Assembly (NCBI GenBank): GCA_002399435.1
Contig: DHDO01000111.1
Location: 18,447 to 31,709 of the forward strand
Direction: 5' to 3'
DNA length: 13,263 bases
Origin: Firmicutes bacterium UBA4874
GTDB taxonomy: Bacteria; Bacillota; Clostridia; Caldicoprobacterales; DTU083
Position numbers and translations under genes: made by a program
Notes under the pieces: generated by a model
What the model saw: the letters and a program-made list of their open reading frames with translations, nothing else
Told to the model about the DNA's origin: nothing
Databases searched by the model: none
Part shown: piece after piece, positions 1,977-4,597 of the stretch
Layout of the letters: each line of letters begins with the position of its first letter
Numbering within the stretch: position 1 is the stretch's first letter

Positions 1977-3989
1977 TCATTTCAGTTGGCTGGGATGCTT
2001 GGAGAAAAAATCCACCCTGGACTCCAAAGTTTTCAGCGTATGCCCTTGCGAAGGATCCATAAAGTCGTACACCGTATCAAAGATCCGGTCCCAGTCCCAG
2101 AACTCCTTCCCGAAGTTCAGATAGTCCCGTACCATCTCCGTCCCTTTCGGTGCAATGGGATGCATCAGCACAATGGAGGTACGCAGCATGTGAAAAGCGT
2201 CCACAACGATCTGCATCCTGAGATCGCTGTCGTCCTTGTCACTGACTTCCTTCATTCCGCCGGCCCAATACTTGTTGGCATTGCGGATGTACGTATCCAT
2301 AAGGCTCATGACATTGTGAAACTCATACCGGTACATCAGTCTCTCGTATTCCAGGATGGTCTCCCTGGATTCCCGCAGCACCGGATCGCTTATTTTCCCC
2401 ACCGGCATCCGACCGTCATAATACTTCTGGCACGTATAGAAGCAGGACCGTGCCAGGCGGTTCAGCACATTGGTGAGCAGGTTGCCTTCCTTGAGCGCCG
2501 GATCGCCGTCTCTCTCACCGGCCTTTGGATTCAGCGGTTTTGGCTGAAAGCTGACGCTGCGGATTCCAAGCCCCAGGCCCAGGAAATGAGCCCGCAGCTG
2601 TTCCGCCGTATAGTATTCCAGCAGATCTTTCGCCATGGGAGGTTTTACCTTCCCACTGCTGCTGGCCTTTTTGTTCAGGAACAGGATATGACTGTTGGCG
2701 ACCAGACTGGGCAGCTGCAGTTGCCCCGGATCCGGATGAATGGACGGATGCTTTCCCTGGGTCGCCATAAACATGGCCATCTCCGCCAGACCGTAAAAAT
2801 AAATATTGTCCTCCCCGATGAATTGATACACCTCTGCATCCGGAGAGCACCACCATTTTTTCCATTCCTCCGCACCCCGGCCCTGCTTCTCCAGCCAGGC
2901 CCTGGTAAAGGAAATCGGTGCCCAGAGGGACTCCGGCCATACCCAGAACGTCAGGCCGCCGACTCCTTCCCGCTCCGGCGCAGGAACCCCCCAGTCAATG
3001 TTTCCCGTCAGCCGGAAAGGTACCAGGGTTTTCCCTGTACGGTAATAAATCCCGTTTTCTGTCAGAACCGCACAGGCTTTTTCCCGGTCCTTCAGATTAT
3101 GAAATTCCATAATGAAAGAAGGTTTCTTCTCCTCTTCCTCCACAGTATGATCCGGAATCCGGTCCTTGATGGATTCCACCTGCTCAAAGAACTCCTTTTT
3201 TACATAAATCACCGGCGGCCTGAGGAACTCTTCCAGGACACGGATCAGCATGGGACGGGTATTGGAAGCCCGTTTCAGGGAATCCACCCATTCCTGCAGC
3301 AGTCCCCGGCAGTCTTCCAGATTGAAATACCAGTTGGTGACATCCCTCATATCGGGCTTCTTTCCCGATAAGGTGCTGATGGGATGGATCAACTCCGCCG
3401 GCATGTACTGATGGCCGAGGGAACATTCATCCGCATATCCTTTTTCCGAACGGCACCCTTCAATGGGGCACTGTCCTTCCACCTGCCGCCCGTTCAGAAA
3501 GATGCCCAATTCACTGTCATAAAACTGGGAAGTGGTGATTTTGGACAGACAACCATTTTGATAGAGCTTGTCGAAGATTTCCCGGGATACCTGCCTGTGA
3601 ATTTCCCGGGACCGGCCCAGTCCGGAACCGCCGTAGTAATCCAGGCTGATATCGTATTCCTCCAGAGCCTTCTTCTGCAGATCATGATTATGCGCTACAA
3701 AGTCCTCCATGGTCCCATGGAAGGAGCCATTTTCCGTCAATTTGCGGTAATTCTCCAGGATCGGCGATCCATAACAGTCCGTTCCGGAAACAAAAATCAC
3801 ATTGTCTTCCCCGATCCGATCCCGCAGGAACCGGGCAAAGACATCCGCATGGACAAACACACCGCCGATATGGCCAAAGTGCAGCTCCTTGTTGCCATAG
3901 GGCATTCCTCCCGTGATCACTGCCCGTTTCGGAAAAACAGGCCGGGCGGTTTCCCCCGTTTTTTCCTGTGCTGTTCTTCTTTCTGCCAT
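1977..3989 (-). CDS. Divergent methionyl-tRNA synthetase-like class I tRNA ligase
   Basis: This 670-residue protein is a class I aminoacyl-tRNA synthetase of the MetG family. The N-terminus has GGMPYGNKELHFGH (residues 27-40), equivalent to the A-x-P-Y...H-x-G-H motif, then SGTDCYGSPI near 68-77. A zinc-knob follows with likely ligands C174, C179, C189 and H193, where many relatives have a fourth Cys. IDWGVPAP (331-338) and an anticodon-binding-like helical region after about residue 500, including NKYW near 572-575, are also family-like. Several features depart from the family. KMSKS is replaced by KKASSSGK (440-447), the VWLDAPIGY segment reads VWPESLWAPIS (350-360), and the usual YFH near the methionine pocket reads YFY (397-399). 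About 90 extra residues, including a run of Glu and Lys, lie between NWYFNLED and IDWGVPAP. There is no C-terminal EMAP-type tRNA-binding domain. The start has AGAAGGAGA upstream. A T-box leader precedes it. It may be a second-copy synthetase or a synthetase-like protein with another job. Confidence 0.85.
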   Translation of the reverse strand: MAERRTAQEKTGETARPVFPKRAVITGGMPYGNKELHFGHIGGVFVHADVFARFLRDRIGEDNVIFVSGTDCYGSPILENYRKLTENGSFHGTMEDFVAHNHDLQKKALEEYDISLDYYGGSGLGRSREIHRQVSREIFDKLYQNGCLSKITTSQFYDSELGIFLNGRQVEGQCPIEGCRSEKGYADECSLGHQYMPAELIHPISTLSGKKPDMRDVTNWYFNLEDCRGLLQEWVDSLKRASNTRPMLIRVLEEFLRPPVIYVKKEFFEQVESIKDRIPDHTVEEEEKKPSFIMEFHNLKDREKACAVLTENGIYYRTGKTLVPFRLTGNIDWGVPAPEREGVGGLTFWVWPESLWAPISFTRAWLEKQGRGAEEWKKWWCSPDAEVYQFIGEDNIYFYGLAEMAMFMATQGKHPSIHPDPGQLQLPSLVANSHILFLNKKASSSGKVKPPMAKDLLEYYTAEQLRAHFLGLGLGIRSVSFQPKPLNPKAGERDGDPALKEGNLLTNVLNRLARSCFYTCQKYYDGRMPVGKISDPVLRESRETILEYERLMYRYEFHNVMSLMDTYIRNANKYWAGGMKEVSDKDDSDLRMQIVVDAFHMLRTSIVLMHPIAPKGTEMVRDYLNFGKEFWDWDRIFDTVYDFMDPSQGHTLKTLESRVDFFSKHPSQLK

Positions 3990-4005
3990 CTGAAATCTCT
4001 CCTTC

Positions 4006-4067
4006 TGTATCTTTCAACTTCTGTCCTTCAACTACTGTGTCCTTCAACTTCTGTGTCCTTCAACTAC
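4006..4067. repeat. Four tandem ~16-base repeats beside the ribosome binding site
   Basis: Four head-to-tail copies occupy 4006-4021, 4022-4035 (two bases shorter), 4036-4051 and 4052-4067, with plus-strand consensus TGTGTCCTTCAACTWC. On the transcribed strand each unit carries GTTGAAGGACACAG-like sequence. Three of the four contain AAGGA, a partial Shine-Dalgarno core, and the fourth reads AAAGA. The array ends just upstream of the true ribosome binding site (AGAAGGAG) of the synthetase gene. Confidence 0.85.
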
Positions 4068-4153
4068 TGCCATTGCCTTGCCGCTCTTTTGTCTTACCTT
4101 TGATTCTGCATCAATCCCGGGAAAAGCATACAGTATTGTACCCTCATGCAAAG

Positions 4154-4195
4154 AAAAAAGCCTCCGCCTCAGGATTTTTTCCTGAGGACGAAAGC
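4154..4195 (-). terminator. Intrinsic terminator of the T-box
   Basis: In the RNA, GCTTTCG (4189-4195) and CCTCAGGA (4174-4167 as the partner pair with 4187-4180) form a 15-pair stem with one bulged U and a loop of five A residues. It is followed by six U residues (4154-4159). The upstream arm is shared with the antiterminator, as expected for tRNA-controlled readthrough. Confidence 0.92.
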
Positions 4196-4465
4196 TTCCG
4201 CTTCGTGTTGCCACCTCTGTTCGCCAATATGTCACCATAATTGGCCTCAGCCGGTATCCATCTTTCCATATCCATACCGCTGTTCCGTAACGGGGAATGC
4301 CGTCATAACATCCATCCATACCCTCTGTCATCCAATATCCTTCTACCCAGGCATGGAAATCCGTATGCCGCTCCGAGGCTTGCTTTGGAAAAGCGCCATG
4401 CCCCTTTTCAGCATCGGGGGCTCTCTGTGAATGGAGTACTTTCCCTACTCTTCTCTTCATCGCAT
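4154..4465 (-). promoter_or_regulatory. T-box riboswitch leader of the synthetase-like gene
   Basis: The minus-strand leader has the hallmarks of a T-box (RF00230), an RNA that senses uncharged tRNA. Stem I contains GAAGAGTA with the AGTA loop-E strand (4446-4449), the CACAGAGAG motif (about 4421-4429) and a distal GATGCTGAAAA loop closed by CCCC/GGGG (about 4401-4419). The specifier side reads AAAGCAAGCC after the helix CTTTTCC. The antiterminator pairs GAGG (4214-4217) with CCTC (4184-4187), and ACGAAGC (4200-4206) with GCTTTCGT (4188-4195), around a seven-base bulge TGGCAAC (4207-4213). The competing terminator shares GCTTTCGTCCTC. TGGC would pair with a GCCA 3' end, so with a tRNA bearing G73; tRNA-Met normally has A73. 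Candidate specifier codons are AGC (Ser), GCA (Ala) or CAA (Gln). Serine best fits the G73 prediction, but I could not fix the register. Confidence 0.9.
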
Positions 4466-4498
4466 TTACATTCATTCTGCTTTCATTACGCCGGCTCG

Positions 4499-4578
4499 TT
4501 TGCTCTGCCGGTCATTTACTCTGCCGGTCGTTTGCTCTGCCGGTCATTTGCTCTGCCGGTCATTTACTCTGCCGGCCC
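4499..4578. repeat. Five tandem 16-base repeats upstream of the T-box
   Basis: Five contiguous 16-base copies (4499-4514, 4515-4530, 4531-4546, 4547-4562, 4563-4578) have plus-strand consensus TTTRCTCTGCCGGTCR. Copies 1, 3 and 4 are identical; copies 2 and 5 have A in place of G at position 4; copy 5 ends CCC. There are no spacers. With the promoter proposed at 4609-4637, the array would be transcribed at the 5' end of the T-box leader. Confidence 0.95.
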
Positions 4579-4597
4579 AGGTTTGTTTCCAAACCTG
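4578..4597 (-). other. GAAA-capped perfect hairpin in the leader 5' end
   Basis: On the minus strand CAGGTTTG and CAAACCTG form an eight-pair stem closed by a GAAA tetraloop. It lies between the predicted transcription start (near 4602) and the 16-base repeats, so it may protect the 5' end of the leader RNA. It has no following U-run and is not a terminator. Confidence 0.6.

Follow-up and report, generated by a model that had tools for sequence, protein, structure and literature searches.

What does a T-box leader whose tRNA contacts do not suit methionine do in front of a gene for a protein that resembles methionyl-tRNA synthetase (MetRS)? The question is raised by a 13,263-nucleotide stretch of DNA from Firmicutes bacterium UBA4874 (contig DHDO01000111.1, positions 18,447 to 31,709; the window). 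A preliminary description of the window had noted such an arrangement and had suggested that the enzyme is wired to an amino acid other than the one its fold suggests. In the textbook view, glutamine reaches tRNA either through glutaminyl-tRNA synthetase (GlnRS) or through glutamyl-tRNA synthetase (GluRS) followed by the amidotransferase GatCAB. We think it very probable that the MetRS-like protein is a MetRS-derived enzyme that charges tRNA-Gln with glutamine directly, under feedback from tRNA-Gln. This proposal rests on the specifier of the leader, the matching tRNA end, the complementary distribution of the enzyme and GlnRS among genomes, a conserved altered pocket, and the fold.

The leader contains Stem I with a specifier, a UGGN bulge, and an antiterminator and terminator, and in a search of 761 bases the Rfam model RF00230 aligned to it from end to end. 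Its score of 87 bits lies slightly below the gathering score of 93 bits, which is why a default Rfam scan reports no T-box in the window; homologous leaders score 93.2 (L054), 76.4 (L052), 77.6 (L210), and between 94.6 and 117.9 (seven others). Folding indicates that the antiterminator and the terminator use a common sequence and are mutually exclusive. The complete switch that had been described is real. (Note that about five tandem 16-base units with CCGGCAGAG are found at window positions 4500-4580, upstream of the T-box, and that about four copies of a short unit, GTTGAAGGACA(CAG), lie at 4005-4065, in the interval between the terminator and the start of the gene.)

In the covariance alignment the Rfam consensus GAA-a-uuc-a-CC is matched by AAA-G-CAA-G-CC, which places CAA at the specifier, followed on its 3' side by a purine and then by the closing stem. 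The specifier-side strand, AAAGCAAGCC, contains no ATG, as had been pointed out. The reading register was checked on other leaders of the same genome, whose assembly (2.57 Mb in 113 contigs) holds 12 T-boxes in all; the alignments comprised L001 to L010 and did not include L011 (thrS again) or L012 (glyS). The same register gives UCC before serS, CUC before leuS, GUC before valS, ACC before thrS, GAC before hisS (beside which lies a match of AspRS size), and UGG before a gene for a TrpX-like protein. The codon directly follows GAA in L001, L004, L006, and L008, and is separated from it by one base in L002, L003, L005, L009, and the window. UUC is obtained for the pheS leader (L007) only with one extra base, and two leaders, L003 (AUG, before an amidohydrolase gene) and L006 (UUC, before a TrpX-like gene, below the cut-off), are uninformative for this check. 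The two tRNA-Gln genes of the genome (anticodons UUG and CUG) specify the end GCCA, with G73, which complements the UGGC of the bulge, whereas two tRNA(CAU) genes, found among 13 fetched tRNA loci that do not cover every tRNA-Met of the genome, end in ACCA. Both contacts thus indicate tRNA-Gln, and this is the tRNA that the leader most likely senses, as judged from the specifier and the tRNA ends.

The same codon family recurs in front of related genes. We checked the upstream DNA of 58 fetched MetRS-like loci, three of which repeat others and one of which has no upstream sequence, so that with the window added about 55 loci remain. A T-box motif lies at most 200 bases upstream in 11 of the 58, and in 12 of about 55 when the window is included; one leader (L059) is cut off, and 11 could be aligned. 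The specifier is CAA in six of these (the window, L052, L054, L144, L210, and L215) and CAG in five (L154, L206, L208, L219, and L220, with L208 and L220 giving identical alignments), and in none of the 11 is it AUG. These leaders span seven genera and five families, and the bulge reads UGGC in all except L215, where it reads UGGU. Glutamine is obtained from every leader in the chosen frame, whereas the adjacent frames would yield Ala/Pro/Thr or Lys/Arg, the base 5' of CAA/CAG being G, C, or A. Because that base varies, the registers AGC (serine) and GCA (alanine) are rejected; of the three codons that the preliminary description had entertained, only CAA survives, and its idea that the leader senses a serine tRNA is abandoned. 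Inheritance of the T-box from another gene, the alternative raised there, is improbable: the glutamine specifier recurs at this gene across the genera and families just mentioned, and the distribution of the gene is complementary to that of GlnRS. Note that the UGGU of the leader in genome G351 would predict A73 in the tRNA-Gln of that genome; no tRNA-Gln was found in the 1.03 Mb of G351 that was examined, and a G:U wobble at this contact is reportedly tolerated (PMC7778990).

The protein itself belongs to the class Ia MetRS-fold family. At E ≤ 1e-3 it matches a single Pfam family, the MetRS catalytic domain PF09334 (221 bits against a gathering score of 20.1). It misses the cut-offs of the NCBIfam MetRS models (190.4 against 336.35 bits and 244.3 against 587 bits, at most 57% of the cut-off), and TIGR00440 (glnS) is absent from its NCBIfam matches at E ≤ 1e-3. 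Over 528 residues it is 24% identical to Escherichia coli MetRS. In a pocket alignment of 261 rows (241 proteins and 19 loci besides the window, a few of them repeated), E. coli numbering was anchored through the named mutations of 8bru. At the places of H301 and W305, which we take to be methionine-pocket residues of the E. coli enzyme, every row has Tyr at the former and either Glu (131 rows) or Gln (130 rows) at the latter, so none of the 261 rows retains the pair looked for in a functional methionyl-tRNA synthetase. The A256-Y260 region is also changed, with W-P-E-S-L-W-A-P replacing W-L-D-A-P-I-G-Y, and D71, which aligns to E. coli D52, is conserved throughout. The altered pocket of the window protein includes Y399 and E403. 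(Two pairwise alignments conflict at the equivalent of W461, and no reading was taken from that position.) Because the side chains of methionine and glutamine are similar in length, a polar residue in the former methionine pocket offers a plausible path to glutamine.

This is a large family: with E ≤ 1e-3 as the limit, two homologue searches scored 5413 of 7993 and 5363 of 7997 candidates, some of them perhaps ordinary MetRS. The best 120 of each search are at least 64% and at least 59% identical to the query, and one relative is from Proteiniborus sp. MB09-C3. In a tree of 22 family members and 12 ordinary MetRS proteins, the branch between the two groups is long, at 2.57 substitutions per site (support 0.685). 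A first structure model, built with 20 sequences, had a pLDDT of 75.3 and gave a MetRS as the top Foldseek match, with a PyrN domain bound to a glutamyl-adenylate analogue at rank 16; for a second model, built with 95 sequences (pLDDT 89.7, pTM 0.91), the 50 matches listed were all MetRS. The predicted fold is thus that of MetRS, and the enzyme lies outside the known GlnRS family and does not pass as a functional MetRS. Sequence collections contain at least 240 protein clusters of this kind, named, where a name is given, 'methionyl-tRNA synthetase', 'methionine--tRNA ligase', or 'class I tRNA ligase family protein'.

Across genomes the enzyme and GlnRS are largely mutually exclusive. In a class sample of 391 genomes, with both enzymes called at E ≤ 1e-70, the MetRS-like gene occurs in 48 and GlnRS in 239 (235 over cut-off), and 106 have neither. 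Only two genomes (G135 and G211) have both, against 29.3 expected (odds ratio 0.019, Fisher p 5.7e-19, in a 2x2 test that treats genomes as unrelated and ignores phylogeny). The exchange extends to single genera, in which the numbers of genomes with the MetRS-like gene and with GlnRS are five and two (g22), four and three (g42), one and nine (g69), three and one (g126), and one and three (g132), no genome of these genera having both. When 30 genomes of the order were sampled, the gene was present in 12 of 13 genomes of family f1, that of the window included, and in none of the 17 others; the f1 exception (G014) has GlnRS instead, and a further f1 genome (G015) has both enzymes. Families f2 and f4 have neither, and GatB is present in all 11 of their genomes. 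A swap of the two genes at one locus found no support, in that seven MetRS-like and three GlnRS loci from the same genera have no DNA in common over about 1.5 kb of their flanks. Among 38 GlnRS loci not one has a T-box close to the gene (for L081 and L082 over 66 and 799 bases upstream), one motif lying 768 bases off in L192.

The class sample and six more genomes from the order sample provide 54 carriers of the MetRS-like gene. A GatB match in 42 of them (41 over cut-off) would suit an enzyme that, as a MetRS-fold analogue of GluRS2, loads glutamate on tRNA-Gln for subsequent amidation by GatCAB, and PyrN, a relative with the MetRS fold, reportedly activates glutamate (PMC8664883). An enzyme of the GluRS2 type is expected always to occur with GatCAB, yet GatB is missing from eight of the 40 good-quality carriers (completeness of 90% or more, contamination of 5% or less). 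GlnRS is present in one of the eight (G211) and missing from the remaining seven (G033, G071, G125, G193, G153, G351, and G374), which thus have neither known route; G351 is a single contig of 3.12 Mb. The whole of G033 contains a single GluRS together with tRNA-Gln(CUG) and tRNA-Gln(UUG). GatA and GatB gave no tblastn hit there at E ≤ 1e-5, and GlnRS gave none apart from that GluRS. Moreover, the conserved Glu/Gln at the place of W305 would suit glutamine no less than glutamate, and we consider the charging of glutamate unlikely. The cupin-associated MetRS paralogs (PMC2922099) provide a precedent for a role outside translation, in which the T-box would only report glutamine supply. However, the protein has no cupin domain, the seven other window genes scanned include neither a cupin nor a lysine N-hydroxylase gene, and both the complementarity to GlnRS and the retention of the gene in genomes of 0.8-0.9 Mb argue against such a role, which is the least credible of those considered here.

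The MetRS fold would also be expected of a second MetRS, or of an enzyme that serves methionine in some lineages, with a borrowed glutamine T-box. Five of the 54 carriers have no ordinary MetRS over cut-off: G019, G084, and G204 are less than 90% complete, and G033 and G288 are near complete at about 0.9 Mb. Furthermore, in G033 the neighbours of the G125 MetRS gene are separated by about 150 bases, as measured from one alignment end to the other, and this gap contains no MetRS; the remaining weak hits elsewhere in G033 (23-29% identity) are tentatively taken for other class I synthetases. Set against this, 49 carriers have ordinary MetRS, the pocket residues are identical in g22 genomes with it (G071, G125, and G193) and without it (G033 and G288), and all 11 readable leaders have glutamine specifiers, which makes a methionine enzyme very unlikely. 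An enzyme charging both tRNA-Met and tRNA-Gln in the smallest genomes would fit G033, which has genes for both tRNAs and in which ordinary MetRS, GlnRS, and GatB were not found. Because genes for tRNA-Asp and tRNA-Phe are absent too, part of that assembly may be missing, and the pocket of the enzyme equals that of the relatives that keep MetRS; a bifunctional enzyme seems more improbable still. Several of our observations nevertheless weigh against direct glutaminylation: about 43 of the 55 MetRS-like loci have no T-box motif close upstream, three of the carriers (G015, G135, and G211) also have GlnRS, and the disregard of phylogeny in the co-occurrence test counts here as well. In addition, the genome of the window retains GatB, so the indirect route could exist there and the enzyme may be dispensable in that genome. 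Finally, given the five carriers without ordinary MetRS and the empty place in G033, a methionine role in the G033/G288 lineage is still conceivable.

Direct glutaminylation of tRNA-Gln would work at the window locus as follows. Uncharged tRNA-Gln(UUG) would pair with the leader twice, by its anticodon at the CAA specifier and by its GCCA end at UGGC, and the bound tRNA would stabilise the antiterminator, such that RNA polymerase continues into the gene. The product, with a MetRS fold and an amino-acid pocket rebuilt for glutamine, would then join glutamine directly to tRNA-Gln, substituting for class Ib GlnRS. It is equally very probable, in our estimation, that this constitutes a third route to Gln-tRNA-Gln, by way of a class Ia GlnRS of MetRS lineage that is independent of the GluRS-derived class Ib GlnRS and replaces it (and in some genomes GatCAB too) in many genera of the class. 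If so, it would be an additional aminoacyl-tRNA synthetase family and an example of the conversion of a methionine pocket into a glutamine pocket; it would account for bacteria that apparently have no way to Gln-tRNA-Gln, correct a recurring annotation as MetRS, and illustrate the use of a T-box specifier as a pointer to a concealed enzyme function. The coordinates of the features are collected in Table 1.

Table 1 Features of the T-box leader and the MetRS-like gene (window positions, reverse strand)
Feature	Position	Strand	Basis
T-box leader, Stem I to antiterminator	4181..4469	-	RF00230, model 1-219, 87 bits, E 2e-19
Glutamine specifier CAA, running from 4382 to 4380	4380..4382	-	Covariance alignment; CAA/CAG in 11/11 readable orthologous leaders
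T-box bulge UGGCAAC; UGGC complements GCCA tRNA end	4207..4213	-	Sequence; own tRNA-Gln ends GCCA
Antiterminator helix	4184..4217	-	Fold of 4217-4179, -10.7 kcal/mol
Intrinsic terminator (hairpin followed by a U run), which overlaps the antiterminator	4150..4198	-	-27.1 kcal/mol
MetRS-like gene, 670 aa, proposed glutaminyl-tRNA synthetase	1977..3989	-	PF09334; sub-cut-off NCBIfam MetRS; genome complementarity; model pLDDT 89.7

Other synthetases and T-boxes of these genomes yielded further observations. The GluRS of the window genome has Arg at what we take to be the position of R358 in Thermus thermophilus GluRS, and among 28 GluRS sequences no column near that place separates GlnRS-free from GlnRS-bearing genomes. 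The HIGH motif reads GYLHIGG in nine GluRS proteins of family-f1 carriers (L126 and L129-L136), and GYMHIGN in the GluRS of G014, which has GlnRS and no MetRS-like gene, and of other families. Asparaginyl-tRNA synthetase is over cut-off in 15 of the 30 order-sample genomes, all in f1 or f3. The AUG-reading T-box of the window genome (L003:1501-1735, reverse strand, with UGGU) precedes an M20-type amidohydrolase gene and not a synthetase gene. Two genes for TrpX-like substrate-binding proteins have T-boxes that read UUC (L006:1501-1747, reverse strand) and UGG (L008:1501-1823, reverse strand), and because of this difference one of the proteins may serve phenylalanine rather than tryptophan. Two near-identical thrS genes (L009 on contig C23 and L011 on contig C22), each with an ACC T-box and nearby tRNA genes, point either to a duplication or to an assembly of mixed strains.

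A MetRS-like GlnRS did not appear in searches of the open-licence PMC literature, a scope outside which preprints and most subscription journals fall. The standard view (PMC3927822) is that bacteria without GlnRS and GluRS2 rely on GluRS and GatCAB. Compared with known systems, the leader is an ordinary T-box in all its parts, yet it carries a glutamine specifier, a class among the rarest in TBDB (PMC7778990). The enzyme has structure matches in the class Ia MetRS (MetG; for instance E. coli 1f4l and Pyrococcus abyssi 1rqg), and differs from it in its low identity and sub-cut-off scores, its altered pocket, its glutamine specifiers, and its separate long branch. With GlnS (class Ib, TIGR00440) it would share its job and it has a mutually exclusive distribution, whereas it gives no glnS match and GlnRS genes lack a nearby T-box; a 2024 catalogue places GlnRS in subclass Ib and MetRS in subclass Ia (PMC11580382). 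GluRS or GluRS2 together with GatCAB likewise yields Gln-tRNA-Gln, yet that route needs GatCAB, which is absent from the seven good-quality GlnRS-free carriers without GatB. A 2008 survey found amidotransferase genes to lack T-boxes (PMC2494555). The nearest parallel for a MetRS fold recruited to another amino acid is found in the cupin-associated paralogs PyrN and Spb40 (9l8v, with a glutamyl-adenylate analogue), the amino acid being glutamate for PyrN. According to two reports (PMC8664883; PMC2922099), PyrN produces its glutamyl ester independently of tRNA and acts together with a cupin in hydrazine formation, whereas the window enzyme is cupin-free and stands behind a T-box for tRNA-Gln.
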